25,950 bases of DNA from a virus. Positions 1 through 24,897 of this stretch are shown here, one piece after another. Where the stretch lies: IMG/VR virus record IMGVR_UViG_3300029982_000061, positions 1 through 25,950 of that record. One strand, 5' to 3'. The notes under the pieces are model-generated. The model had not been told where the DNA came from. It ran no database searches and saw only the letters and a program-made list of their open reading frames with translations. Each line of letters starts with the position of its first letter. Position 1 is the first letter of the stretch. A program made the position numbers and the translations under genes.

Positions 1-2
1 GC

Positions 3-611
3 CGAATCACGCTGTTCTCTCGCTCGCAGGCTGGCCTTGCGCCGGTTGTGACCAGCACCACGATTGCCCAGGCGCTCATTACCAATGGGTGCTTTTTCTA
101 TGGCATTTATTCAAACCCCGGCAATTCGTTCGTGCTGGGTAATCCCGGCGCGATCAGCGGCCCGTTTGCGTGGTGGGATTCCTACATTAACGCGGCATGG
201 CTTAACAACAATCTCCAAACCACCGCGATCCAGACTATGCAGGCGAATGGCAACATCCCTTATAACGCTAAGGGATACTCGATCATCCGCACGTCGCTGA
301 CCGGCGGAAATCCTGGCGCCAACACCACCGGATCACAGCCCCAGACTGTAGCACCAGGGCCGATTCAGCAAGCCGTGAACTTCGGCGCGATCAATTCGGG
401 AGTGTTGCTTTCCGCCACCCAGCAGGCTGCGCTTGTGGCTTTCTTTGGGGCGAACGTGTCCGGGCCACTATGGCAGACTGGCTATTACCTACAGGTCAAA
501 GACCCTGGCCCGACCGTGCGCGCAGCGCGGGGTTCGCCAATCATCAATCTGGCGTACATGGATGGAGGCTCCGTCCAGTATATCAGCATTTCTTCCCTGA
601 ATATCCAATAA
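3..611 (+). CDS. DUF3383 family tail sheath-like protein, C-terminal part (5' cut by window edge)
   Basis: The reading frame is open from the first complete codon at 3, so the true start lies upstream; the GTG at 48 is internal. The protein has the late-domain features I associate with DUF3383 phage proteins: a stretch with FFYGIYSNPGN, then WWDSYINAAWLNNN, YNAKGYSIIR, and near the C-terminus GYYLQVKDP, RGSP and DGGSVQYISI. In contractile phages of this gene order the DUF3383 protein forms the tail sheath around the tube. It is followed 12 bases later by the tube gene. Family assignment is from recalled sequence pattern; the sheath role is family knowledge plus position. Confidence 0.8.
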   Translation, partial: RITLFSRSQAGLAPVVTSTTIAQALITNGCFFYGIYSNPGNSFVLGNPGAISGPFAWWDSYINAAWLNNNLQTTAIQTMQANGNIPYNAKGYSIIRTSLTGGNPGANTTGSQPQTVAPGPIQQAVNFGAINSGVLLSATQQAALVAFFGANVSGPLWQTGYYLQVKDPGPTVRAARGSPIINLAYMDGGSVQYISISSLNIQ

Positions 612-623
612 GGAACACGGAAA

Positions 624-1055
624 ATGGCTCTAACACTTACCTCCGCAAATACCGTGTTTACGCTCGCCGTCCCAGGTTTGCTGCCTCCCACCTCGTTTTC
701 GGGCTTCGCGCCGGAGGAAATCTACGAGGTGGAGGACATCGACAATACGGAAATCCAGATGGGCATGGATGGCAAATTGTCGGCCGGCTGGGTTCCAAAA
801 GCGGTGGCGATTCGGTTCACTCTGCAAGTTAACTCACCGTTTAATGGATTTTTCGATACGTGGGCGCAATCGCAGGCTCAGGTTCAGGATGTTTATCCGT
901 CCTACGGCGAAATCGTCCAGCCTTCGATTGGGTTGGCGTGGGCGCTGGCGAACGGTTTTCTCGGCCCCCGATCGCCTCTTGCTAGTGCCGGCCGCGTCTT
1001 GAAGGTTCGGAATTACACAGTGCATTTTGAATCGGCCCCTCTGTTTCCGGTGTAA
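624..1055 (+). CDS. Phage tail tube protein (DUF3277-like)
   Basis: A 143-residue protein directly after the sheath gene, where contractile phages keep the tail tube. The N-terminal MALTLTSANTVFTLAVPGL and the central pattern VEDIDNTEIQMGMDGKLSAG, followed by a rule-like block (FTLQVNSPFNGFFDTWAQ), fit small beta-rich tube subunits that stack into hexameric rings inside the sheath. It would form the DNA and tape-measure channel. The start is the ATG at 624, after a purine-rich AAGGAACACGGAAA leader. No membrane segment or signal is seen. The DUF3277 label rests on position and general pattern, so the tube role is more certain than the family number. Confidence 0.7.
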   Translation: MALTLTSANTVFTLAVPGLLPPTSFSGFAPEEIYEVEDIDNTEIQMGMDGKLSAGWVPKAVAIRFTLQVNSPFNGFFDTWAQSQAQVQDVYPSYGEIVQPSIGLAWALANGFLGPRSPLASAGRVLKVRNYTVHFESAPLFPV

Positions 1056-1056
1056 T

Positions 1057-1542
1057 ATGAGAAAAAAAATTGACGTTGTAATTGATAGCGGGCGCGATCT
1101 CGGAAAACGCTTTCACATTACCGAAATGGATTCCTGGAAATGGGCGCGGTGGATGGACCGCGCCATTTTTGCAATTAGCAAGAATGGCGGCTCGATCTCG
1201 CCAGAGGTCATGGATGATGGGCTACAGGGTTTGATCGTTTTTGGCCTTCAGTCCCTCACCTGTATGGATTTCGAGCAGGCTGAACCGCTGATTAAGGAAT
1301 TGATGGAGTGCGTTCAGATAAAGCCAGATCCCACGCGCATTGATTTCGTGCGTCCCGGCGGCTTACTGGACGGCGATATCGAGGACTACAAAACCTATTG
1401 GCGGCTGCGTCGGGAGGTTTTAGAAGTTCACCTGGGTTTTTCCATCGCAGACGAATGGTTAAAATTCCAAACCATGCGTCTGACGGGCGAGAAAATCTTA
1501 TCGAATACGCCAACGTCAATCGATGGATTGGCCGTGCAATAA
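1057..1542 (+). CDS. Tail assembly chaperone (short product)
   Basis: The ATG at 1057 lies one base after the tube stop codon. Starting there gives 161 residues beginning MRKKIDVVID; an upstream in-frame TTG at 1027 would run into the tube gene and is less likely. The acidic, mixed-charge protein sits between tube and tape measure, the position of lambda G/GT-type tail assembly chaperones that coat the tape measure before tube polymerisation. It contains WKWARWMDRAIFAISK and DEWLKFQTM segments. A canonical slippery heptamer at 1434-1440 and an open -1 frame to 1670 suggest a second, longer product. The chaperone call is by position and the two-frame arrangement, not by a recognised catalytic motif. 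Confidence 0.65.
   Translation: MRKKIDVVIDSGRDLGKRFHITEMDSWKWARWMDRAIFAISKNGGSISPEVMDDGLQGLIVFGLQSLTCMDFEQAEPLIKELMECVQIKPDPTRIDFVRPGGLLDGDIEDYKTYWRLRREVLEVHLGFSIADEWLKFQTMRLTGEKILSNTPTSIDGLAVQ
1434..1440 (+). other. Candidate -1 ribosomal frameshift site GGGTTTT
   Basis: The sequence reads G GGT TTT in the frame of the chaperone gene (Gly127, Phe128), an exact X XXY YYZ slippery heptamer, and a further T follows. The -1 frame after it is open to 1670. I found no other heptamer of this type in the overlap of the two frames. No downstream stem-loop or pseudoknot was worked out. Confidence 0.55.
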
Positions 1543-1670
1543 GCTCCGGGTGCGCAACGCTGCACGAAATGCAAACGGTTTTGTCGTTTGAGGACGTGTT
1601 TGACCTACTCGAAATCGTAGCTGTCGATAACTATAACCGGAGGGTTTTACATGACAAAAAGCCCGGCTGA
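1440..1670 (+). CDS. Frameshift extension of the tail assembly chaperone (GT-like)
   Basis: The -1 frame adds 76 residues after the slippery site, giving a predicted fusion of about 204 residues. The extension contains NRWIGRAISSGCATLHEMQ and FEDVFDLLEIVAVDNY, which look like real folded helical sequence rather than a shadow, and it fills the gap up to the tape measure gene. In lambda-like phages the extended form (GT) binds the tape measure while the short form (G) multimerises. An in-frame ATG at 1569 could give a separate 33-residue product, but it has no good ribosome binding site. I therefore prefer frameshifting, without direct proof. Confidence 0.55.
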   Translation, partial: FHRRRMVKIPNHASDGRENLIEYANVNRWIGRAISSGCATLHEMQTVLSFEDVFDLLEIVAVDNYNRRVLHDKKPG

Positions 1671-1679
1671 GGCGGTGTA

Positions 1680-3500
1680 ATGCCCGCTACTATAATCGAC
1701 AGCCTGGTCGTAACGCTGGGCTTGGACCCCAAGCAGTATGGGACCGAAGCACTGGCTGCGCAAAAGCGGCTGGATAAGTTTGATGCCACGGTAAAAAAAC
1801 TCGGCATCGACGAAAAAAAACTGACCGATGTTCAGCGCACGCAAATCAAAGCGCTGCGCGAAATGCAGTTGCAGAGCGACAAGGCCGGAAAGTCTCTCTC
1901 GTTCACGTCCAAAATTGGCGGCGAAATGTGGGGCGTTCTGGAAAAGGGCGCGCTTGGCTTTGGTGCCGCGCTGGGGCTAATGTCTCTCGCGCGCACGGCA
2001 GAGAACGCGGTGACTTTTTCCGCCGGCATCGGGCGATCGGCGGCGTTTCTTGGGCAGGCCACGAAAGAGGCTGATGCTTTTGGGAAAGCGATTTACGAAA
2101 TCGGCGGCAACGCTGACGAAGCTATTTCCACCCTTCGCGGATTGAATTCGATAATCCAGGGGCGTCAGTATGGCGATCTTACTTCGCTGGCACTGGCTCG
2201 GGCGGCCTCTCTGCTTGGCGGCCGCACCGGGCGGGCGATCGATCTAAATGGGGCTAATGGGCAGCCGTTGGGACCGCAGCAGACGCTATTGGCGTTTGCG
2301 GATGCGGTGAAAACCCTGGGTGTGCAGCAGGCCGCCGTGGCGTTTGATCAGGCCGGGATGCATCTACCCGATGCGGTGGTGGCATTGCTCGCCAAGGGGC
2401 GCGGTGGGGCTGAGGCGGCTATCTCGGCTGCTGGGGCTAGTGCTGTTGATGATACTCAGGCACAGGCGGCGCAGGAATTGTTGCACGGCGCGCGTGGCCT
2501 TGATGACGCCGTTTCAAAATTTCAGGTTGTCGCAACGCTACTTGCGGCACCGGCTTTCGTGCATGGGTTGCAGATTTTAACAGCCCAATTTCAATATTGG
2601 ATGAGTAATAAAACTGACGCTGATAAGGCTGCACGCGATGCCGCAATACGTGCATCAGATATTCAATTCTCCGGCCAATCCACTGTTGATGCGCGAAACG
2701 CTGAAGATGCGCTAAATGATGCGGGGGTTAAAAATCCAGGGCATTACGAAACACACGGGAAATTCACATTCTGGAAAGATGACGATGGTGGATGGACTAA
2801 AGACCAGATGATTTCCCGCGCGACTCATTTGATCGCATCAGGTGAAACACCACAAAACGCGGCGGCTATTGTGCAGCAAGAAGTTGCCAATGGAGGGTCG
2901 CCCACAATTTCGATTACCCGGCCCCTCGGCGGTGACACGTCAACATCCTTCGATGATCTCGAAAAACAATACGGGCTCCCCGTCGGACTTTTGGGCTCCA
3001 TCCGCCACGTTGAAAGCGCGGACGGCACGAATACAGGCCCATCAAGCTCCGGGGCGGTCGGTGATTTTCAATTTCTACCTAGCACAGCGGCGGATTTGGG
3101 AATTGACCCCAATGACCCCAAGCAGGCGGCAAAGGGCGCGGCAGTTTATCTCGCGCAGCTGATCCGAAAATATGGCAGCGTCGCCAAGGGGATTGCTGCC
3201 TATAATTGGGGCGCCGGGCATCTTGACCAGGATATTTTGGCTCACGGCGATCAGTGGGGCAACTTCCTGCCCAATGAAACATCGCAGTATTTGCAGAAAA
3301 TGGCCTCGTCTCTCGGGCACGGCGCCCGCACACACAGCGCCACTATAAATCACAACGGCGCAATCAATGTGACTGCTACATCCCCCCACGCATCCGATAT
3401 CGCGCATGCCGTCAAAACCTCGGTCTATGGTGTATGGGATGACCATCTCAATAAAATGGGGCCGTTTTTAGTAGGCCAAGCCCAATCGGGGCAGCATTAA
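1680..3500 (+). CDS. Tail tape measure protein with C-terminal lytic transglycosylase domain
   Basis: A 606-residue protein at the tape-measure position. Residues 1-75 are charged and helical. Around residues 80-105 there is a Gly/Ala/Leu-rich segment (GALGFGAALGLMSLARTA) that could insert in membrane. Ala-rich helical sequence follows to about 330. Residues about 430-550 match the soluble lytic transglycosylase (SLT) fold: LPVGLLGSIRHVESADG with the catalytic Glu at 445, then SSGAVGDFQFLPSTAADLG, and AAYNWGAG later. It would set tail length and open peptidoglycan during DNA entry. It is short for a tape measure, implying a short tail. The start ATG overlaps an out-of-frame TAA. SLT call strong; tape measure by position and architecture. 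Confidence 0.85.
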   Translation: MPATIIDSLVVTLGLDPKQYGTEALAAQKRLDKFDATVKKLGIDEKKLTDVQRTQIKALREMQLQSDKAGKSLSFTSKIGGEMWGVLEKGALGFGAALGLMSLARTAENAVTFSAGIGRSAAFLGQATKEADAFGKAIYEIGGNADEAISTLRGLNSIIQGRQYGDLTSLALARAASLLGGRTGRAIDLNGANGQPLGPQQTLLAFADAVKTLGVQQAAVAFDQAGMHLPDAVVALLAKGRGGAEAAISAAGASAVDDTQAQAAQELLHGARGLDDAVSKFQVVATLLAAPAFVHGLQILTAQFQYWMSNKTDADKAARDAAIRASDIQFSGQSTVDARNAEDALNDAGVKNPGHYETHGKFTFWKDDDGGWTKDQMISRATHLIASGETPQNAAAIVQQEVANGGSPTISITRPLGGDTSTSFDDLEKQYGLPVGLLGSIRHVESADGTNTGPSSSGAVGDFQFLPSTAADLGIDPNDPKQAAKGAAVYLAQLIRKYGSVAKGIAAYNWGAGHLDQDILAHGDQWGNFLPNETSQYLQKMASSLGHGARTHSATINHNGAINVTATSPHASDIAHAVKTSVYGVWDDHLNKMGPFLVGQAQSGQH

Positions 3501-4205
3501 ATGAGTGGTTTTATCGGTGGACTGCCGCTACTCCCCGCCTATGTTGGTGCTGTAGTGCGGTCTCATATTCAACAGCAGGCAACTCAGCAATATCCGTCTA
3601 ATCTGCCGCAGACGCATTTGAAGTGGGGTATTTTCACCTCCCTCACGCCGTCCAAGACGCCAACAGTTAGTCCCAACGGCGCACCAAGCGCGGCACCGAC
3701 TGAGGTGCTGACCGGCTACAATACCGTGGTGGGATTCGATTTCAGCGTGGATGCGCAGTTGCCGACCTACCCTGTGGAGCAGGGAGGGTTCTCATCTTAC
3801 AACAAGGTGCAGTTGCCTTTCGGGGCGCGGTTGCAATACGCGGTCAGCGGCGGCGCGATCAAGGTCAACCAGTTTTTACTCAAAGCGCTGTCTCTCGAAA
3901 AAGATACAAATCTTTATACGGTTCTGACTCCTGTTCAAACGCTGCAAAACGTCAATGTAAAGCATGTGGATTACAAACAGACCTCACGCGCTGGAATCAC
4001 CCTTTTAACCGTCAATGTGTGGCTTGATGAGATACGACAAACCGCGACTTCCACAACACCCATATCCACGACCGGAAACCAGATTTCCGCCACACAGACA
4101 CGCACGCCGAGCGCCCAAGCGCAGACACAATCCGGTGTGGTGCAGACGCAGGCTGCGATTTCGCAATTAGATTCACTGGCCCCGGCTAAGGGTTCGGTAC
4201 CATGA
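3501..4205 (+). CDS. Dit-like baseplate/distal tail protein
   Basis: 234 residues, starting immediately after the tape measure stop. The middle carries VVGFDFSVDAQLPTYPVEQGG and SSYNKVQLPFG, which resemble the N-terminal Dit-like domain of phage tail proteins that join tube to baseplate. A beta-rich stretch follows (VNVKHVDYKQTSRAGITLLTVNVWLDEI). The last 50 residues are Thr/Gln/Ser rich and probably unstructured. It lies ahead of the plug and hub genes, as in simple contractile baseplates. Next gene overlaps by four bases. No enzyme motif is seen. Confidence 0.6.
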   Translation: MSGFIGGLPLLPAYVGAVVRSHIQQQATQQYPSNLPQTHLKWGIFTSLTPSKTPTVSPNGAPSAAPTEVLTGYNTVVGFDFSVDAQLPTYPVEQGGFSSYNKVQLPFGARLQYAVSGGAIKVNQFLLKALSLEKDTNLYTVLTPVQTLQNVNVKHVDYKQTSRAGITLLTVNVWLDEIRQTATSTTPISTTGNQISATQTRTPSAQAQTQSGVVQTQAAISQLDSLAPAKGSVP

Positions 4206-4504
4206 GTGGGACTGCAATTCAGATTGTTCCGTTACAGGCCGTTGCATCGCAGCAAATAAGCGCCACGCTGTCTAACCAATCGGTGACGTTGAATGTATAT
4301 CAGCTTAACTCTGGCGTTTACATGGATGTGATTTTATCGGGCGCGATCTTCCTTGCTGGTGTCTCGTGTCAAAACGGGCGGCCTATGATCTTAGGTAAGC
4401 CAGGCTTTGCGGGTGAATTCATATTCTGGGACCAAACAGGATCGAGTGATCCGTATTACACTGGTTTGGGCACGCGCTATTTGCTGTGCTACTATGCGAC
4501 ATGA
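4202..4504 (+). CDS. Baseplate plug protein (Pam3 gp18-like)
   Basis: A 100-residue protein starting in an ATGA overlap. The pattern of a short beta-strand protein with IVPLQAVASQQISATLSNQSVTL, DVILSGAIFLAGVSC, GRPMILG and, at the end, YYTGLGTRYLLCYY matches my recollection of small plug domains that close the tube at the baseplate centre in Pam3-type contractile phages. It is encoded between the Dit-like and hub genes, as expected for a central baseplate component. No signal peptide or membrane segment. The family name is from memory of the motif spacing. Confidence 0.6.
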   Translation: MSGTAIQIVPLQAVASQQISATLSNQSVTLNVYQLNSGVYMDVILSGAIFLAGVSCQNGRPMILGKPGFAGEFIFWDQTGSSDPYYTGLGTRYLLCYYAT

Positions 4505-5394
4505 CCTTTTCCACTAAGATAATCTCTGTTACATTCACCCTGGCCAATGGACAGTTTCAGGGCACTGGGTCTAATACGCTGACAGTTTCAGGGCGGCGAG
4601 TGCTTTTTCACATGGAGCAGCAAGGCATATTTTCAAAAGATTACGTTGTCACCTCGATCTACGGCATGACGCAATCTCAGATGAATCAACTTTCGACCTA
4701 TGCCGCATATCCCTACCAGGGAAACGAAAACACGATTTCCGTTTCTGCTGGCGACGCGAGTGGGATGGCGCTGGTTTTCCAAGGCAACATTTTCCAGGCC
4801 AACGCCGATTATAATGCCATGCCGAATGTGCCTTTCGTTTTAACTGCGTTTCAGAGTTCATTCGATTCCGTGGTTGTCACGCCGCCAACGAGCTATTCTG
4901 GCCCCACCGATGTGGCCTCAATTCTCACCGCGATGGGAGCGCAGTATTCGAGTGGGCCGCTGCGGGTTGAAAATAACGGCGTTGACGTGAAACTGGCCTC
5001 ACCGTATTTCTCCGGGTCACTTGGGGATCAGGTCAACGCATGCGTCAAAGCGGCAAATATTGATTGCCGGGTTTCGACCGTGGAAGGTGTGATTGCGATT
5101 TGGCCGAAAGGTCAATCTCGGCAGGGGCAGGCGGTTACGATTTCACCCACAACGGGATTGATCGGTTACCCCACATTCAATCTCAACCAAATCCGGTTTC
5201 GCTGCGAGTTCAATCCGAATATCCGCTTTGGCGTGCCTGTGACCATTCAAAGCTCTTTGCAGCCAGCATGCGGAAACTGGACGCCCACAACCATCTCGTA
5301 TGATCTCCAATCCGAGACACCTGACGGCGCGTGGTGGCAGACGATACAGGCGTTTACGAATTTTAACGGATCGCCTTCGGGTGTCTTGCAATGA
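4501..5394 (+). CDS. Baseplate hub protein
   Basis: The ATG at 4501 overlaps the plug stop codon (ATGA), which decides the start over an in-frame GTG at 4486. The 297-residue product begins MTFSTKIISVTFTLANGQF and has LTVSGRRVLFHMEQQG, VTSIYGMTQSQMNQLSTYA and repeated beta strands. This is the pattern of hub proteins (gpD/gp27-like fold) that sit between tube and spike. It is followed at once by the spike gene, to which the hub trimer normally binds. Role from position and fold-like pattern; no single diagnostic residue. Confidence 0.65.
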   Translation: MTFSTKIISVTFTLANGQFQGTGSNTLTVSGRRVLFHMEQQGIFSKDYVVTSIYGMTQSQMNQLSTYAAYPYQGNENTISVSAGDASGMALVFQGNIFQANADYNAMPNVPFVLTAFQSSFDSVVVTPPTSYSGPTDVASILTAMGAQYSSGPLRVENNGVDVKLASPYFSGSLGDQVNACVKAANIDCRVSTVEGVIAIWPKGQSRQGQAVTISPTTGLIGYPTFNLNQIRFRCEFNPNIRFGVPVTIQSSLQPACGNWTPTTISYDLQSETPDGAWWQTIQAFTNFNGSPSGVLQ

Positions 5395-6041
5395 ATCCTT
5401 TCAGTGATGCCGACCTAAACAGCGCCAGCGGGCCATTCAATTCGATCAATTATCTCATTGATCAGGCTCTAGCGCGGATCGAAACCGTGTGCCGCGCTAA
5501 AGTAATTTCTTGCTCCAATTCGGGCAGTCTTTCGCCTATCGGCACAGTCGTAGTGCAACCTATGGTGTCCGTCCAGAATGGGGCTGGGGTGGCGTCACCT
5601 CACGGCTATATCAACAACGTAGTTTATTCTCGGTGGACCGGCGGCGCGAACGCAATCATCATGGACCCGGTAGCCGGCGATGTGGGGCTTTTACTGGTTT
5701 GCTCACGCGACACATCGGCGGTCAATGCGACCGGCGCGCCTGCAAATCCGGGGTCATTTAGGAAGTTTGATCGGGCGGACGGGGTTTTCTTTCCGGCGGG
5801 GCTTTCGGGCGTTCCTACTCAGTGGGTGCAGTTTATCGGGAATAAACTCACCGCCAATGCCGTCACGGAATTGGATTTGCAGATTGGCGGCATGACCATT
5901 CTGGCGGTCACGGGCGCAGGCGTAAATATCACTGGAACTCTGACGGTTTCGGGTGATGCCCATATCTCTGGCCGTGATTTCTTGACGCATGAGCATACCG
6001 GGGTGCAATCGGGCAGCAGCAACACGGGAGGCGTCGTTTGA
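5391..6041 (+). CDS. Membrane-puncturing spike protein (Gp138-like) with HxH tip
   Basis: 216 residues. The N-terminal half looks like the OB-fold of Gp138-type spikes (GTVVVQPMVSVQNG, then GDVGLLLVCSRDTSAV and FDRADGVFFPAG). The second half turns into short beta repeats (ITGTLTVSGDAHISG), then DFLTHEHTGVQSGSSNTGG at the end. The two histidines at about 200 and 202 form the HxH motif that binds iron at the apex of P2 gpV-type spikes, where three chains meet. It would pierce the outer membrane at the start of infection. Start ATG overlaps the hub stop (ATGA). Confidence 0.8.
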   Translation: MNPFSDADLNSASGPFNSINYLIDQALARIETVCRAKVISCSNSGSLSPIGTVVVQPMVSVQNGAGVASPHGYINNVVYSRWTGGANAIIMDPVAGDVGLLLVCSRDTSAVNATGAPANPGSFRKFDRADGVFFPAGLSGVPTQWVQFIGNKLTANAVTELDLQIGGMTILAVTGAGVNITGTLTVSGDAHISGRDFLTHEHTGVQSGSSNTGGVV

Positions 6042-6391
6042 TCACTTGGTTTCTAAACCCCGACACATGGGATTCCTGCTTGGACATCAATGGCAATCCT
6101 GCTGTGGCGAGCGCGCCATATCAGCCTAGCCAGGATGTCGCCAGCGCAATCAAACTTTTTCAGGGAGAACTCTGGTATAACACCACGGCCGGCGTGCCCT
6201 ATTTCGAGGATATTCTCGGCGCGACATCGCCTCCTTTATCGCTGATCTCTGGACTAATCTCGACTGCGGCGCTTACAGTACCGGAGGTGGTGACGGCTAA
6301 CACTGTGATCACCAGCGTGCAAAACCGGACCGTTTCAGGTCAGGTGCAGTTTTCGACTTCAACGGGGGTAACCGCTAGTGTCGGGTTCTAA
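6038..6391 (+). CDS. Baseplate wedge protein, gp25/GpW-like
   Basis: 117 residues with a TTG start overlapping the spike stop (TTGA). SQDVASAIKLFQGELWYNTTAGVPYFEDILG follows the usual layout of gp25-like wedge proteins: a QDV-AI helix, then a strand with W/Y-NT-x-GVPY-x-x-x-ILG. The C-terminal third is beta (VQNRTVSGQVQFST). It would start the wedge that joins the hub to the sheath. It lies directly before baseplate J, as in most contractile phages. The TTG is the only start that suits the spacing. Confidence 0.75.
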   Translation: MITWFLNPDTWDSCLDINGNPAVASAPYQPSQDVASAIKLFQGELWYNTTAGVPYFEDILGATSPPLSLISGLISTAALTVPEVVTANTVITSVQNRTVSGQVQFSTSTGVTASVGF

Positions 6392-7598
6392 TGTTCCGCC
6401 TCCCACTTTCACCAACGCGGGATTTGTTATCACGCCCGAGTCTGAGATTTTGGGCGGCGTGCAGGCAGATTGGGCGCAGTCCTATTCCTCTCTCGGAACG
6501 ATCAACACCGCCCTAGAAACGCCGCAGGGCCAGGTTATTTCATCGGAAGCGGCGATCATCGGCAACGCGCAAAGTCAGTTTGTGGCGCTCGCCAACGGGG
6601 TTGACCCCGCACTTTCCACCGGGCGCATGCAGGATGCCATCGGGCGGATTTACTTCATTACTCGGCTTCCGGCTGAACCCACTACGGTCGCGTGTGTCTG
6701 CTCAGGATCGCCGGGAGTGGTGATTCCATCGACGGCGCTTTTGCAAGATCCCTACGGCAATACGTTTGTGGCATCCTCTGCGGCCACGATCTCGGGGGGT
6801 GGCACCGTGGCGCTGTCGTTTAGCGCGACCACTACAGGCCCCCTTGCCGTGGCGTCCAATAGCCTCTCGATTTATCAGACCATCCCCGGCTGGGATTCCG
6901 TTAGTAACTCGGCCGGAGTGCTGGGGCAGAATGTTGAAACCGCATCGGAATTTGAAACCCGGCGCGAGGCTACGATCGCCAATCAATCGAACGGCTCCGA
7001 TGGGGCTATTCTCGGTAATATCCTGAATTTGCCGGTGAGTGAAATCCCACTTGATGCCTACGTGGTCAGCAATGACGCGGGCACGTCCACCGCATACGGG
7101 ACTGTCACACTTTCGGCCAATGCGGTTTATGTGGGTTATTCTGGCGGGAATCCCGCTGCTATCGCCTTCGCCGCATGGCAAAAGAAAGCCCCTGGCGCGC
7201 CATGGTTTTCAGGGAATGGCACCTATACGATTATTGATCCCAATCCTTACTACGACGGCTCAGGGCCTTCCTACACGGTCAAAATCAACTCCGCCACGTC
7301 AACGCCAGTTAACACGGCGGTCAATCTTAAAAACTCCCCCGCCGTGCCATCTAATGCTCTCGCACTCGTCACTGCCGCGATCAATGCGGCTTACGCCGGA
7401 ACGGATGGCTTGCCGCGCGCATCGCGCATTGGACAAACGGTTTACGCATCCCGCTTTTATCCCGGCATCGCTGCGGCGCTTCCGGGTGTGAATATCATTG
7501 ACATTCTAATCGGCACCGGGTCGCCGTCATCTTATTCCCAAACTATCGAGATCGATCAGATTTCAACTTCCGGCTACGTGACGTTGACGCTGACATGA
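6378..7598 (+). CDS. Baseplate J-like wedge protein
   Basis: 406 residues with a GTG start that overlaps the gp25-like gene by 14 bases. Features of baseplate J are present: an N-terminal helix near [24 protein letters not shown], a beta domain with [18 protein letters not shown], the motif [28 protein letters not shown]-type strands, and a C-terminal helix-strand part with [11 protein letters not shown] and [18 protein letters not shown] proteins link gp25-like and the last wedge protein and hold the fibres. No oddities seen. Confidence 0.85.
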
Positions 7599-9697
7599 GC
7601 GGTGGATTTACTCACACTTTAGCATCGGCTGTTGAGGCTTATGTTTGGACCGGCGACGGGTCGCAGCTTGGTCTTGAGGGGCTTTCGGAAAGCATCACAG
7701 GGACTATCCCTGCGACTGGAATTAGCGGGTTCAACACTGGCCTTTTTGCAGGCTATTCATCGACTATTTTCAATCCCTTGACCGCTGGATTCCAAGGCAC
7801 GCAGATTCTATTTGGCGGCATCGGCGATCCCACTGACGGCTATTATCCATACGATGTCACCACCTTAAACGGCACTGTGATAGTCGGCCCGTCAAGTAAC
7901 ACCTACATGGGCACGCTCGTAACGGCGGTTCATCAGGTTTACAGCTCTGGCACGCTTACCGCGTCCACCGATCCGAGTGTAACGATTCCCACTGTGGGCA
8001 GCTTCACAACATCAATTAACGACGCCTATGAATTCGTAGTCCCGACACCCGTTCCGTCGGATTTTATGTGGCCCAAATCGACCGCTCACACCGCCACGGT
8101 TCTTACTCAAATCACGAATCCAGATTATAGCGGAAAGCCTGTCGGGACCGTAATCGTATATTTTAATGGCTATACTTACACGTTTGAAAATGTGTTGGTG
8201 ACGAATGTAAGCGGGTCGAATTGGAACGCGCTTGGTGCAATCAGTATTGGTAACATCTATACTTCCATCTTTGATGCCTACGCATCTATAGTGGGTTATT
8301 CCCAATATACAGGTTCCGGGCCGCTGCCTCCGCTAGAGGGAATTTACCTCGGCAATCCCGGTGCGGTCTCGACTTTCCCGGTGGCGATCAGCGGCACCAA
8401 CGTCGGCACACTTGCCGCATTTATTAATTATCAACTCGGCACGATCACAGGGACCGTTACAACATTGGGGCCGTGGCTTCCTGTGGCCTCTTTTGAGAAT
8501 GGGAATTCATGGAGTGGCTTTGTCGATTCGTATTTTCCAACCGGGCAGTACACGCTTCAGGTTGAGGATGCGATCACTTTTGTTCCGTCCAACATTGTCA
8601 CATTCACCACGGGTTCTATCGAACAGGTGCATGCTCAACCGGCGGGGGCTTATTTCGGGTATCCGATCCAGTTAAACGGTGCGGTATATAATGGCCCAGC
8701 GACCGGCATGGAAATCCTTTGGAATGGCGAGTGGATTGAGGTTCAAAATTTCACATACTCAAACAACTCCACCTATTCGCAGTGGCAGGGCCTCGGGCCG
8801 ATTGTCACAGTTCCATCCAGCTATTTCGTGCGGGATCGTTCGCAGCCATTGGTTGTGTCAAATCAATCATTTTTTGAAGTTGATATCGGTGACCAGTCGA
8901 TTATTTCGCAGTATGCCAATTCGTCGGTAATCACCGGGCTTGTTGATACTTTCCAAGCCGCGTGCGATCCGTGGGATTGGATCAACGGATGGTATGATGC
9001 GGTATGGAATTTAGGGCCATACCCAAAAGTTCCGAATACCGCGCATAGCTATGGCCTCGATGTGTGGGGCCGAATCGTGGTCGTGTCGCGCATCGTTACT
9101 GTGGTGAGTGGGTCGTATCTGGGATTTTCCGATCAAACCGCCAACGCAGGGGTGACGGGTTCGATCTCGGGGACCACGCTTACGGTAAGCGCGGTCTCAG
9201 CGGGGACCGTGCATAACGGCGCTTCAATCGCCGGCCTATCCGCACCCACATGGATTACGGGACTAGGGACGGGCACGGGCGGCACGGGGACATATTTCGT
9301 ATTGCCATCCCAGACCGTGGCGTCTGGCACCCTCACCATCGTAAATCCGGGCTCAGGGGATGCGTTTAACCAGCAGGCGTTTAACTACGGAGCGTCAAAT
9401 ACGAATAACGTGGCGCTCACTGATTCGGCATATCAACAGTTGATTTACGCCAAAGCGGCATTCAACCTCTGGGATGGATCGATCGCGGGGATTAACCAAA
9501 TTCTCATGTTCCAGTTTGGCGCAGGGAACGGCTCAGGTCCGCCATCGCAGCCCGCCGCCTACTGCACGGATGGGGGCGATATGACCATGACCTACACTTT
9601 TTCTTTCACTCCAACGCCTTTACAGTTATCTATTATCCTGAATAGCGGCGTGTTGCCGCATCCTACCGGCGTGGCCGTAACAGTGGTGCATCCATAA
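7595..9697 (+). CDS. DUF2612 baseplate wedge protein with long N-terminal extension and an inserted domain
   Basis: 700 residues. The DUF2612 core occupies about 430-700: [47 protein letters not shown], then after a break [37 protein letters not shown] and MTMTYTFSF near the end. The usual family size is much smaller. The first 430 residues are beta-rich and low in charge (many Gly, Thr, Ser, Tyr) and could form a host-contact arm. Around residues 515-590 a Gly/Thr-rich block interrupts the core between VVSRI and AFNYG. In this gene order the DUF2612 protein is the third wedge subunit. Overlap with the J gene is ATGA. Confidence 0.7.
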
Positions 9698-16111: not shown

Positions 16112-16119
16112 CGGAAATC
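16112..16119. repeat. Left copy of 8-bp target site duplication CGGAAATC
   Basis: CGGAAATC lies directly outside the left inverted repeat. The same eight bases occur in the same orientation directly outside the right inverted repeat at 16939-16946. This is what a DDE transposase leaves on insertion. Confidence 0.8.
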
Positions 16120-16139
16120 GGTAGTGTCTCAGTTTGAAA
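16120..16139 (+). repeat. Left terminal inverted repeat
   Basis: Twenty bases, GGTAGTGTCTCAGTTTGAAA, perfectly complementary to 16919-16938. After one mismatch the next four bases (TCTC) also match. The stop codon of the ORF at 16245-16129 lies in this repeat. Confidence 0.85.
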
Positions 16140-16245
16140 TTCTCTGTTTATAGACGGTGGGCCGCACCGGCTTAGCTGCCCGCGCGTCAATTAGCGCAGC
16201 CACGTCTTCCATGCTCCAAAGCGTCGTGCTCAGCTTAGCCGCCAT
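16129..16245 (-). pseudogene. 38-codon ORF, probable transposase C-terminal remnant
   Basis: ATG at 16245, with GGAG nine bases upstream, gives 38 residues beginning [20 protein letters not shown] and ending YKQRISN. The TGA stop lies in the element's left inverted repeat, as the transposase stop does in many compact insertion sequences. The pattern AMAA-x-L-x-x-x-LWSMEDV-x-x-LI followed by a basic tail resembles, from memory, the C-terminal ends of IS1-family transposases. The frame stays open some 33 codons further upstream but through the repeat array, which looks unrelated to protein coding. It could instead be a live micro-gene; I favour a remnant. Confidence 0.4.
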
Positions 16246-16258
16246 GGCTACACACTCC

Positions 16259-16386
16259 GCAGGTTTGTGACTGCAGGTGTAGTGTACTTTATGCAGGTGG
16301 TCAAGTATTTTGCAGGTCTTGTACTTTAATGCAGGCCAAACGGTTTATTGCAGGCATGTCTTATAATTGCAGGCTATAATGTAACC
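16259..16386. repeat. Iteron-like array of seven GCAGG cores, mostly 19 bp apart
   Basis: GCAGG cores begin at 16259, 16273, 16293, 16312, 16331, 16350 and 16369, so the spacings are 14, 20, 19, 19, 19 and 19. Six of the seven read TGCAGG(T/C). The 12-13 bases between cores are A/T rich and only loosely alike (several contain GTACTTTA or GTATTTT). A 19-bp period is not a multiple of three, so this is not coding repetition. Such spacing suits a row of protein binding sites (replication iterons, a repressor array or transposase sites). It fills the gap between the passenger genes and the transposase remnant. Confidence 0.75.
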
Positions 16387-16610
16387 TATTGTTTTTCCCA
16401 CCTTTTAGCGGCCGCGTTCTTAGCAATCTCAGCCCGCCGCTCTGGCGTCATATTCCTGGCACGCGCCTGACCGCCTAACTTGCCCAGCGTCGCCCCAGCG
16501 CTGGCGGCCGTTACAACATCCTCTTCCTCGCCGGTAGCAATCCGCATTACCTTCACGGCGTTGCCGATCACGTCGGCGGGGCGCTTCTCGCCTTTGGGGC
16601 CGCGCGGCAT
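16386..16610 (-). CDS. Small basic passenger protein of unknown function
   Basis: 74 residues starting MPRGPKGEKRPADVIGNAVK; this ATG has a GAGGA eight bases upstream, while an ATG nine bases earlier abuts that site too closely. The middle is acidic (TGEEEDVV) and the C-terminus is LGKLGGQARARNMTPERRAE then IAKNAAAKRW, a Gly/Lys/Arg-rich pattern I recall from many small alphaproteobacterial proteins of mobile DNA, sometimes labelled as nucleic-acid binding. It follows the 75-residue gene by one base, so they form an operon. No enzymatic motif. Confidence 0.65.
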   Translation of the reverse strand: MPRGPKGEKRPADVIGNAVKVMRIATGEEEDVVTAASAGATLGKLGGQARARNMTPERRAEIAKNAAAKRWEKQ

Positions 16611-16611
16611 C

Positions 16612-16839
16612 TCAGTCATCCTCAGAAAACAACGGCTTGGCCAACTCCTGCCGCAAAATCTCGGCCCCTATCGTTTTCAGGAATATCAGTTCCTTGATTA
16701 GATAATCCACATGGGCCTCAAACTCAGGTACGCCCGCAGCGCCTGGGAAGAACGCATTCCGAGAATCTTCCACCGTGTGGGGATGGATATAAATCTGCCT
16801 ATTAAGAATACTCACATTGAAGGTGGTGAGCTTGCCCAT
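16612..16839 (-). CDS. Small passenger protein of unknown function
   Basis: 75 residues beginning MGKLTTFNVSILNRQIYIHP, with a good GGAG seven bases before the ATG. The protein is mixed alpha/beta with a helical, Leu/Ile-rich second half (AHVDYLIKELIFLKTIGAEI), and no Cys, signal or membrane segment. I do not recognise it. It is first in a two-gene unit with the MPRGPKGEKRP protein inside the transposable element. A 9-bp inverted repeat sits 8 bases upstream of the start, so expression may be controlled by binding there. Confidence 0.6.
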   Translation of the reverse strand: MGKLTTFNVSILNRQIYIHPHTVEDSRNAFFPGAAGVPEFEAHVDYLIKELIFLKTIGAEILRQELAKPLFSEDD

Positions 16840-16847
16840 GGTAGTCT

Positions 16848-16871
16848 CCTATGCTTTCCGCTAAGCATAGG
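16848..16871 (-). promoter_or_regulatory. Inverted repeat (possible operator) before the passenger operon
   Basis: CCTATGCTT at 16848-16856 pairs with AAGCATAGG at 16863-16871 across six bases (TCCGCT). It lies between the right end of the element and the ATG at 16839 and partly overlaps the ribosome binding region. It could be a protein binding site, or an RNA hairpin near the start codon. Confidence 0.45.
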
Positions 16872-16918
16872 GCAATCTAGACTCAATAGCTAGTTTCAGT
16901 CCGTATCAATCTTGAGAT

Positions 16919-16938
16919 TTTCAAACTGAGACACTACC
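16919..16938 (-). repeat. Right terminal inverted repeat
   Basis: Exact complement of 16120-16139. Reading inward, one base differs and then TCTC matches again. Confidence 0.85.
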
Positions 16939-16946
16939 CGGAAATC
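16939..16946. repeat. Right copy of 8-bp target site duplication CGGAAATC
   Basis: Same eight bases and orientation as 16112-16119, immediately outside the right inverted repeat. On the minus strand it encodes part of DFR in the interrupted gene. Confidence 0.8.
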
Positions 16947-17142
16947 AAAGACCATTTGAATAGGCTGTTGGTCACTTTTCATGGCGTTATACGCCTCGAC
17001 GTCAGGGATGCGGATCATTCCAAGGGAGACGCCCCATTGAACAGCCTCACGAGGCAACGAAGGGACATGCCCATGCTTCTCTTCGAACAGGTGCCATATC
17101 CTTTGTAACTGCTCATTGTATGTCGCCACGTCAAAAAACTCC

Positions 17143-18930
17143 TTAGAGCGATGCTGGCGCCGGCACGCCCCAACCATCAACAACACTTGCCGGGGCGACA
17201 AATTGGCGAACCTTGACTTTGTATCTCGCCAACCAATCGTATCTTCCCATCTTCCGTTGCAATTGCCCTACTACAATCCCAGGATGCCGCTGTATTCGGC
17301 GAGCAAATCCGAGGGTATCTTTTTCAGAAATGAACGGGGATTTTCTCAGATAAAATGAGTTTAGTTCACTTCTAGGAGCGCAAAAATCAGCAGCAGCATT
17401 ATTTGCAATACGCTCCTCGTCTGGAACGCCATCATCTTCAAGATCATTGCACTCTAAGTCCGTGTCAACAGACTCCGCACTAAGCGTCTGTCCTCGACCA
17501 TGCTTTTGCAACACATGCTCAAGCTCGTGCCTTAACACAAACCAAAAATTATCAATTCTGTCTTGCCTGATTGTCATTCCAACAACGGGGGAATCGCCCA
17601 ACCAAAAGCAAACGCCATCTATATTTGCTTTTGGTAGGGTCTCCACGATAAGAAAACGAACTCCGCATTCCGATAACATTCTCGGAACGTGACGAACCTC
17701 TTCTGGGTCAATCATATAACGGGGAAACTCTGCAATTAACTTTTTTAATTTGATTTCAGAATAGATCGGAACGATCATTTCGGCGGCCAACTGGCGGACG
17801 CGGAATAGCCACGCTAATTGAGAGGGGGTTGTCTCTGCATAATCAGATTTCTTGGCTGCATGAGCCAAATATAGGATATCAGAAAGATCGTTCTTACAAA
17901 AAAATCGCATCATTTGCGCTTCAAGTAATCCGATATCACCATCTTCAAGCCACCCTCTACGAATCATCTCGCGAACGGGGTAAGTGCCCTGCAAAACTGC
18001 CCTGCGTTCGATCCCTGGGTCGGGCCTTCGAGCATTCGCCATTTCGTAAGATTGCTGAATATTGGCCCAGTATTCAGCAGATACATCGAATGCCTTACCA
18101 AAAGCTAACGCCATTTCGGGACTAATACCTCGCTTGCCAGCGATTATCATATTAACCGCTTGCTCAGGAGCATTGAGAATGTAAGACAGGTCACGTTGGG
18201 ACCATCCCCGAGCCTCCAATTCGTCTCGGACGAATTCTCCGGGATGAGGAATATCGGCAAGCCTTGATGCAATGGACATGATTTCCCCCGCTTCCATCTG
18301 TTCGGCGCGGTTGGAGGCCTTTTTCTTTGCAGCATTGATAACATTGTGTGAGGCTGCGGCATCGCGGCGACAAAAAATCGTGATCCCCCGGAAGCGGTGG
18401 TTCGTAGATTTCCACATTCCTATCGCGGCCTCTTGTTCAAATGCATCTTTTCGGTACATCGGGAGCACCTGGTCGAGCCAAACTATGTGCGCGCCAATTG
18501 GAAGTCTTTGGAGCGCGCGCATAACGACATTTCGTTTTACCATTGTAGTTTGATAATGCTCTGCATCCTCGACGCTGTATGGCGGATCAGCCAGCACCAG
18601 ATCATATTGTTGCAGAGGCACGCGCGTTAGAGTTTGAGCATCATCTACATAGGTGGGTTTTAGGGACTCGTTTATATCGACTGTATCCCCCGGAAAGGTG
18701 GAGAGATCGACTTGACCGCTAAAAAGATGCAGTACATGCTTTTTATCGGGAAAAAGCGCCTTTACTCGCCGCAGGTAGCCCGCCGGGTAACCACCATAAT
18801 AAGTCGATTTGACACGGTAATCATTGCCCATAATCCAAGTGCCGACCGCTCTGCCATCCGGCCCAACAAAAAGACATTTGGGAAAACCGGTTTCTTTGGC
18901 ATAATTTTCAATTCTCTCGTCCCACTGCAT
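17143..18930 (-). CDS. Fusion protein: DPPY DNA methyltransferase, HigA-like HTH, ImmA/IrrE-type metalloprotease
   Basis: Start at 18930: AAGGAGG lies seven bases before this ATG, giving 595 residues; an ATG 39 bases upstream lacks such a site. Residues 1-205 form a methyltransferase-like domain with HLFSGQ (68-73, SAM-binding loop position) and ADPPYS (114-119, catalytic motif IV of amino-methyltransferases). Residues about 225-300 match HigA-type XRE HTH proteins (HPGEFVRDELEARGWSQRDL, AGKRGISPEMALAFGKAF, YWANIQ). Residues about 375-530 match ImmA/IrrE peptidases, with zinc motif HELEH at 468-472 and a later Glu-rich helix (DEERIANNAAADF). HTH plus ImmA is a known pairing; the added methyltransferase is unusual. 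A second start is possible at Met218 (18279), preceded by GGGGGA, so a separate HTH-protease may also be made. Confidence 0.85.
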   Translation of the reverse strand: MQWDERIENYAKETGFPKCLFVGPDGRAVGTWIMGNDYRVKSTYYGGYPAGYLRRVKALFPDKKHVLHLFSGQVDLSTFPGDTVDINESLKPTYVDDAQTLTRVPLQQYDLVLADPPYSVEDAEHYQTTMVKRNVVMRALQRLPIGAHIVWLDQVLPMYRKDAFEQEAAIGMWKSTNHRFRGITIFCRRDAAASHNVINAAKKKASNRAEQMEAGEIMSIASRLADIPHPGEFVRDELEARGWSQRDLSYILNAPEQAVNMIIAGKRGISPEMALAFGKAFDVSAEYWANIQQSYEMANARRPDPGIERRAVLQGTYPVREMIRRGWLEDGDIGLLEAQMMRFFCKNDLSDILYLAHAAKKSDYAETTPSQLAWLFRVRQLAAEMIVPIYSEIKLKKLIAEFPRYMIDPEEVRHVPRMLSECGVRFLIVETLPKANIDGVCFWLGDSPVVGMTIRQDRIDNFWFVLRHELEHVLQKHGRGQTLSAESVDTDLECNDLEDDGVPDEERIANNAAADFCAPRSELNSFYLRKSPFISEKDTLGFARRIQRHPGIVVGQLQRKMGRYDWLARYKVKVRQFVAPASVVDGWGVPAPASL

Positions 18931-18963
18931 CGTTGCCTCCTTGACATGGAAACAGCACAGTGG

Positions 18964-18985
18964 AATCATTACGTGATTTGTACAA
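18964..18985. promoter_or_regulatory. Palindromes in the divergent promoter region (possible operator)
   Basis: AATCA-TTACG-TGATT at 18964-18978 and the perfect palindrome TTGTACAA at 18978-18985 lie end to end, 34-55 bases upstream of the start of the fusion gene and facing a short + strand ORF. The gene encodes an HTH protein, so self-control through these sites is a reasonable guess. I could not place convincing -35 and -10 boxes. Confidence 0.35.
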
Positions 18986-24241: not shown

Positions 24242-24287
24242 GGCCAAAGCCTCCATTTGAAATTCCGAGTTTCACAGTTATCGCCCA

Positions 24288-24551
24288 TCAGCCGGAGCCG
24301 GAGCCGTCGCCGTAGCCGGAGCCGTCGCCGGAGCCGGAGCCGTCGCCGGAGCCGTAGCCGTAGCCGTAGCCGGAGCCGTCGCCGTCGCCGTAGCCGTAGC
24401 CGTCGCCGGAGCCGTAGCCGGAGCCGTAGTCGTCGCCGTAGCCGTAGCCGGAGCCGGAGCCGGAGCCGTAGCCGGAGCCGTCGCCGTAGCCGGAGCCGTC
24501 GCCGGAGCCGTAGCCGGAGCCGTGATGTTTATTTTTCAATGAAAGCGACAT
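24288..24551 (-). CDS. Gly-X repeat protein (GSGYGDG type)
   Basis: 87 residues; GGAGA lies seven bases before the ATG at 24551. After MSLSLKNKHH the remaining 77 residues alternate Gly with Ser, Tyr or Asp, with one break (GDDY). The opposite strand is also open over the repeat but would encode Arg/Ser repeats without a good start, so the minus strand is preferred by start site, operon direction and position. The gene overlaps the DUF6948 gene by 23 bases. Similar Gly/Tyr/Asp-rich small proteins occur in some phages; their role is not known to me. Confidence 0.6.
   Translation of the reverse strand: MSLSLKNKHHGSGYGSGDGSGYGDGSGYGSGSGSGYGYGDDYGSGYGSGDGYGYGDGDGSGYGYGYGSGDGSGSGDGSGYGDGSGSG
24291..24521. 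repeat. Hexanucleotide repeat tract (GCCGNN)
   Basis: 231 bases built almost wholly of three hexamers on the + strand: GCCGGA, GCCGTA and GCCGTC, in irregular order. On the minus strand these are GGC followed by TCC, TAC or GAC. All the variation is in two of the six bases. Gain or loss of units keeps the reading frame. Confidence 0.9.
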
Positions 24552-24897
24552 AAGATTTCTCCGCAGATTCTGTCGTTGGAATGTATTCGATTGCGTTTGT
24601 CAACATAACTTGACCGGTTGCATTCAAGCGCGATCCCTTGCCGATTCCGGTTTGCGCGACAGCAGAAAGCGACAGTGCACCACCATCCCACTTCCACAAA
24701 CGTAGAGCATTATCGAGTTTACACTCCATTGCATTTTGCGGGTTGATCCATACCACATCACCAATATGCACCCCCGCGCTGTAGGTCCGCACAAGGCATC
24801 TTTCCCCTAACATTGGGTGGATGACGGTTTCGGTTTCTTTACCGAATAGTGCAGCTAATTGTTTTGCCTCACCGATAGTCAGATCATCTATTTTCAT
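24529..24897 (-). CDS. DUF6948-like phage protein
   Basis: 122 residues from the ATG at 24897, which has GGAGAG upstream; an in-frame start further out (24927) lacks one. The sequence MLGERCLVRTYSAGVHIGDVV, ALRLWKWDGGALSLSAVAQ and GQVMLTNAIEYIP fits my memory of the DUF6948 domain of phage proteins: a VRTYSAGVH strand, an RLW-x-W turn and an LT-x-A-x-E-x-IP end. Family function is unknown. An extra N-terminal helical segment (LTIGEAKQLAALFGKE) precedes the domain. Located in the early operon. Confidence 0.7.
   Translation of the reverse strand: MKIDDLTIGEAKQLAALFGKETETVIHPMLGERCLVRTYSAGVHIGDVVWINPQNAMECKLDNALRLWKWDGGALSLSAVAQTGIGKGSRLNATGQVMLTNAIEYIPTTESAEKSYVAFIEK

Follow-up and report, generated by a model that had tools for sequence, protein, structure and literature searches.

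Inverted repeats bounding a short stretch of phage DNA raise the question of whether that stretch is a transposon and, where no intact transposase is encoded, of which family it belongs to and what the genes left inside it do. We addressed this for positions 16112-16946 of the window, which is the whole stretch of DNA analysed and covers an IMG/VR virus record of 25,950 bases. Overall, the evidence points to a non-autonomous, internally deleted member of a widespread IS1-family transposon group at 16120-16938, a reading to which we assign a probability of about 0.85 and which draws on the ends, the duplication, a transposase remnant, homology to a full-length relative and insertion at the 3' end of a gene. 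The core of this group is a transposase and, upstream on the same strand, a small gene that we call KARA, a label coined from a KARA motif in its protein; the cargo is variable.

Ends and target of the window element

An earlier note on this DNA had described exact 20-bp ends (25 bp with one mismatch) that bound 819 bp within a perfect 8-bp duplication, and this was confirmed by repeat comparison and by the sequence itself. Specifically, the two arms are 25 nt long and 96% complementary with one mismatch, their outer 20 bp being exact. The features of the locus are as follows.

16112-16119, no strand: left copy of the duplication, CGGAAATC, read from the sequence and from the joined flanks described below
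16120-16144, plus strand: left terminal inverted repeat, the transposase-side end, carrying the last residues and stop codon of the transposase frame
16129-16290, minus strand: C-terminal remnant of an IS1-family transposase, about 46 codons, located by tblastn with the L030 transposase and by DNA similarity to the L183 element
16250-16396, no strand: 147 bp without similarity to the L183 element, replacing its RosmerTA-like cargo and most of its transposase gene
16386-16610, minus strand: KARA gene for a 74-aa basic protein, in the ORF 16386-16619; a core gene of the transposon group
16612-16839, minus strand: gene B for a 75-aa acidic protein, in a hypervariable slot between the end and KARA
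16849-16870, no strand: palindrome CTATGCTTTCCGCTAAGCATAG, operator-like and intact, immediately before the ribosome binding site that serves the gene B/KARA operon
16914-16938, minus strand: right terminal inverted repeat, the KARA-side end, from the repeat comparison
16939-16946, no strand: right copy of the duplication, CGGAAATC, read from the sequence
16939-17201, minus strand: interrupted target gene, the 'third gene' of a PD-Lambda-2-like module; the present ORF, 16896-17201, ends inside the element

In a simple random-sequence estimate the window is expected to hold about 2e-6 such repeat pairs by chance, or about 3e-11 when the duplication is included. Given this expectation and the dozens of other elements that share these ends, the idea that the inverted repeat is a chance pairing in phage DNA is already refuted. 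The ends do not occur again in the 25,950-base record, and an Rfam search gave no match. From the perfect repeats and duplication, the insertion may be recent. Elsewhere in the window, the two strands of a repeat-rich stretch (24257-24553) encode peptides rich in SR or in GSG/YGS.

The element sits at the 3' end of a minus-strand gene whose homologues run past the insertion point. When the flanks are joined at a single copy of the duplication, the translation reads IQMVFDFRDDVEERR, which aligns with IQLVLDFADDVAERR of the homologue on a Methylocapsa plasmid (L219; 69% over 29 residues) and thereby restores the conserved C-terminus. Compared with its homologues, the interrupted gene is also missing some 68 internal residues, a deletion that is independent of the transposon.

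A transposon group with two core genes and variable cargo

The earlier note had made its reading depend on the ends occurring together elsewhere, and we found them together, each pair with an 8-bp duplication, at dozens of further sites. The exact 20-bp end GGTAGTGTCTCAGTTTGAAA is present in more than 119 stretches of bacterial genomes, a lower bound, with hosts that by record title include Alpha-, Beta-, Gamma- and Deltaproteobacteria, Bacteroidota, Acidobacteria, Planctomycetes and others, and it is also present in 92 stretches of viral contigs. Within the loci that we fetched, which were picked by the DNA end or, for two plasmid loci (L215 and L217), by KARA, and in no case by the transposase, 71 elements including that of the window consist of two inverted ends with an 8-bp duplication, exact in 68. 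Their sizes are 42-4236 bp (1365-4236 bp for those with a full-length transposase), and the duplications have no strong consensus, base use being only mildly uneven. A stretch at L219:852-3976 has variant ends (GGTAGCGGGTCAGTTTGAAA) that possibly define a sister group; it carries KARA, HigA/IrrE and the third gene, and has no matching duplication. The element at L215:7339-8177, on an Acidiphilium plasmid, is located at the 3' end of a RES-domain gene; this gene and its antitoxin gene are beside the element and mostly outside it.

Full-length relatives encode the transposase in a single ORF of 266-300 aa (n=35). The L030 transposase matches the Pfam model DDE_Tnp_IS1 (PF03400) with 29.1 bits, above the cut-off of 24.1, and scores 67.5 with the NCBIfam IS1 model, for which 100 is required, indicating that the group is divergent. 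Relatives in L215 and L217, on an Acidiphilium and a Hoeflea plasmid, are annotated 'IS1 family transposase'. The motifs DEIW, TDG and YVERxN are conserved among the transposases and would fit a DDE enzyme, with a putative assignment of the catalytic residues. Ends beginning with GG and an 8-bp duplication are likewise as in the IS1 family, where duplications are 8-9 bp; the classical two-ORF insA/insB frameshift arrangement was not found, and since all 35 relatives are single-ORF the group is not classical IS1. Of the two families proposed in the earlier note, IS1-like is therefore upheld by the Pfam match, and IS1595 is dropped, there being no IS1595 model among the Pfam or NCBIfam matches of the L030 transposase. 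Taken in its wide sense, the IS1 family includes the window element as a non-autonomous member.

What is left of the transposase in the window is the C-terminal remnant that had been listed as possible, and it is similar to residues 245-290 of the L030 transposase (48% over 50 columns, E 1e-7, tblastn). Its frame closes at a stop codon inside the left inverted repeat, in the manner of 16 of 35 full relatives, whose transposase stop codon lies within the repeat and begins exactly 12 bp from the end. The statement that no transposase is left inside hence holds for an intact gene and fails for this remnant, and the view of the element as a real, clean-ended, non-autonomous transposon is supported.

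The two co-directed small genes described earlier are real as minus-strand ORFs (16612-16839 and 16386-16619), and it is the passenger status of KARA that does not stand. All 38 elements with a full-length transposase contain KARA, always on the same strand, upstream of the transposase and near the opposite end, and KARA is thus a core gene of the group and not a passenger. In a set of 240 genomes from one class that had been selected without reference to the ends, a hand count places 15 of 17 strong KARA matches (at least 75 bits) upstream of a transposase match that shares their contig and strand. In addition, the distance matrices of the two proteins are correlated (Mantel r 0.62, none of 5000 permutations as high; 35 elements, shared ancestry included in the value), as would be expected of genes that travel together. 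The KARA genes of the window and of the L183 element differ with a dN of 0.07 and a dS of 0.87 over 73 codons, which indicates purifying selection.

The KARA protein has a pI of 10.3 and probably starts at the second ATG of its ORF (16610), as M4 is the conserved first residue of the family. Residues G46, G49, R53, R62 and A66 are invariant in 55 sequences. Three helices are predicted (mean pLDDT 84, pTM 0.36), and comparison of the fold with solved structures gave no match; one homologue is annotated 'RNA-binding protein'.

Cargo of the group was examined in 89 ORFs, in which the frequent Pfam families are HTH_3, IrrE-type peptidase M78, P63C, SocA/Panacea antitoxin and HigB-like toxin, and the rarer ones include Fic, DNA methylases, STAND-type NTPases and SDH-type proteases. 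PADLOC matched RmrA (RosmerTA) in about ten proteins, PD-Lambda-2_B in about ten, and also SoFic; RmrT matched in three elements. Counted by families of our own choosing, 19 of the 38 full elements have toxin-antitoxin- or Fic-like cargo and 29 have some recognised family. Judged by these matches, the cargo often appears to be toxin-antitoxin- or defence-like. In four elements (L035, L037, L041 and L173) the N-terminal region of P63C-domain cargo resembles the C-terminal KARA motif (GG.ARA..LSPEERSAIARRAA).

Homologues of the gene interrupted in the window are themselves cargo of this group, located next to a HigA/IrrE protein. The neighbouring minus-strand ORF 17143-18969 is 45-58% identical to those HigA/IrrE proteins and its protein (17146-18969) matches PADLOC PD-Lambda-2_B (HTH-IrrE protein B) with an E value of 1e-35; the interrupted-gene protein (16899-17201) has no PADLOC match, and the 4-kb flanks of the element contain no HigB-like match. 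In the same ORF a phage-type DNA methyltransferase is fused in frame to the PD-Lambda-2_B-like protein, and the methyltransferase part is a separate gene of about 210 codons, with 77% identity, in virus contigs L221 and L222. These similarities indicate that a module of the transposon-cargo type lies immediately outside the element and forms a fusion with a phage methyltransferase gene. The window element does not include this module, which is oriented differently to KARA than in full elements and has no further ends nearby; it is possible that the module arrived with an older element of the same group. A general habit of inserting beside cargo-type modules is not supported, the window being the only one of 71 elements with a tested cargo family within 4 kb outside.

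Origin of the deletion derivative and the place of gene B

Virus contig L183 contains the closest full-length relative, an element of 3344 bp. With positions numbered from the right-hand end of the window copy, the homologous blocks are 1-93 (84%), 311-542 (81%, KARA) and 690-819 (75%, transposase C-terminus and end), the last of which pairs with 3215-3344 of the L183 element. Gene B occupies the spot of a different, 98-aa gene in L183.

Two histories would produce such an element, in that an IS1-type transposase supplied in trans moved it in its present form, or the element moved whole and then lost its interior. A second copy of the 819-bp derivative was not found in searches that included phage records and viral contigs, and the deletion could have followed insertion, so that mobilisation in trans is plausible only. 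The competing account, in which an autonomous element of full length first inserted in the gene and then underwent deletion in situ with no mobilisation in trans, has in our judgement a little less than an even chance. It agrees with blocks that match L183 from both ends inward, with missing parts that are cargo and most of the transposase, and with the single copy. Nothing decisive speaks against it: transposase-less elements are many, an uninterrupted long transposase match being absent from 33 of 71, and the sole form found in more than one locus (L137, L167, L184 and L193) has the identical duplication each time, which means that these four share one and the same site.

Flanking sequence was also used in the search for relatives of the locus. 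For an empty site in related phages, phage records yielded no match, no related loci were found for the endolysin, the interrupted gene or gene B, and no contig was found with the exact left flank of the element. Relatives of the baseplate were found in 31 loci, only one of which has an endolysin relative. In one virus contig with a baseplate relative (L223), positions 1035-8951 are 99.9% identical to window positions 1-7917, and this contig ends before the element.

Gene B lies in the slot between the end and KARA, where about twenty other elements have differing small ORFs and others have none, and it is probably cargo. Searches for relatives of gene B in plasmids, phages and viral contigs, and in 299 genomes belonging to one family (this last search without a positive control), gave none, and the fold model of its protein is poor, with low confidence (mean pLDDT 65.5). 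The KARA ATG (16610) follows the gene B stop codon by 1 nt, a spacing that makes translational coupling of the two genes likely. Gene B would thus be a cargo gene of the variable slot that is translated together with KARA. One could instead view the pair as a toxin-antitoxin system that stabilises the element, given two small adjacent genes in an operon behind a palindromic operator and a group whose cargo is rich in such modules; this we consider improbable, for KARA is conserved while the slot gene varies between elements or is absent, and neither protein matches a known toxin or antitoxin model.

A candidate operator and comparison with known systems

The palindrome upstream of the KARA operon has the form ATGCTT-N6-AAGCAT, and many elements have a second copy ahead of the transposase gene, at a distance from the gene start of exactly 22 bp in 11 elements and of 23-28 bp in a further 4. 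Matches with up to two arm mismatches occur at 0.32 per kb, relative to 0.033 in shuffled sequence. In L037 the palindrome core is inverted between unchanged arms, which would suit a dimer that reads the site as double-stranded DNA. The recurrence of the KARA operon palindrome about 22 bp before many transposase genes suggests that KARA is probably a regulator. In the specific form of this proposal, which is the simplest interpretation of the sites, KARA would bind the palindromes before its own operon and before the transposase gene and repress both, and the transposase-less copy in the window would still supply a trans-acting regulator. We hold this form to be possible, at slightly under even odds, and what counts against it is that the palindrome lies within 420 bp upstream of only 37 of the 57 window-type KARA genes and that the KARA fold matches no solved structure. 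An accessory role in transposition, with KARA as a nucleoid-like or RNA-binding protein and the palindromes bound by the transposase or a host factor, is a somewhat weaker possibility. It would account for the strict linkage of KARA to the transposase, for a basic protein with three predicted helices, for the annotation of the one homologue and for the resemblance of P63C cargo to the KARA C-terminal motif. Against it, the palindrome precedes KARA much more often in the window's type (37 of 57) than in the other (7 of 36), a comparison in which host and transposase type differ too.

If KARA is indeed the regulator, the group would have an undescribed architecture, in which an IS1-type transposase is joined by a small DNA-binding regulator that is obligatory and acts at two palindromic operators, exchangeable toxin-antitoxin and anti-phage modules are carried through plasmids, phages and bacteria of several phyla, and deletion derivatives are shed that retain the regulator and may repress relatives in trans. 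This composite picture is tentative, and we rate it as distinctly less than an even bet. The spread of defence and toxin-antitoxin modules among bacteria, plasmids and phages would be easier to understand if small transposons carry them as cargo. The 20-bp end makes the elements easy to delimit exactly, which opens their cargo slots to a search for unknown defence genes, and the conserved second gene and its candidate operator are a directly testable pair.

With single-ORF insertion sequences of the IS1 family the group shares an IS1-type DDE transposase, ends beginning with GG and the 8-bp duplication. It differs from IS1 in its one transposase ORF without an InsA/InsB frameshift, in its size of 1.4-4.2 kb, in its conserved extra gene and cargo, and in scores below the NCBIfam IS1 cut-off. 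The ISMhu11 subgroup of IS1 in ISfinder comprises single-ORF, longer members; the papers searched did not mention this subgroup. Nor did the literature searched, which included few subscription papers and left ISfinder outside the comparison, give an account of IS1-type elements with KARA or RosmerTA cargo. The group is thus apparently undescribed, a novelty that is provisional given that coverage.

Like mobile insertion cassettes and MITE-like IS derivatives, the window element has the ends and duplication of an autonomous relative and other genes inside in place of a functional transposase, but it differs from them in retaining the parental core gene KARA, an operator-like site and a transposase remnant. 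Tn3-family transposons carry toxin-antitoxin modules between or beside their transposition genes (PMC7157771), a trait that the present group shares, although it has a transposase of another family, no resolvase that we could see and more varied cargo, and Tn3 has no counterpart of KARA. Tn7-like transposons similarly combine a transposition core with changing defence cargo (PMC8649781), in contrast with which the present elements are much smaller and have a single IS1-type transposase. The nearest published parallels are therefore the toxin-antitoxin pairs of the Tn3 family and the defence cargo of Tn7-like transposons.
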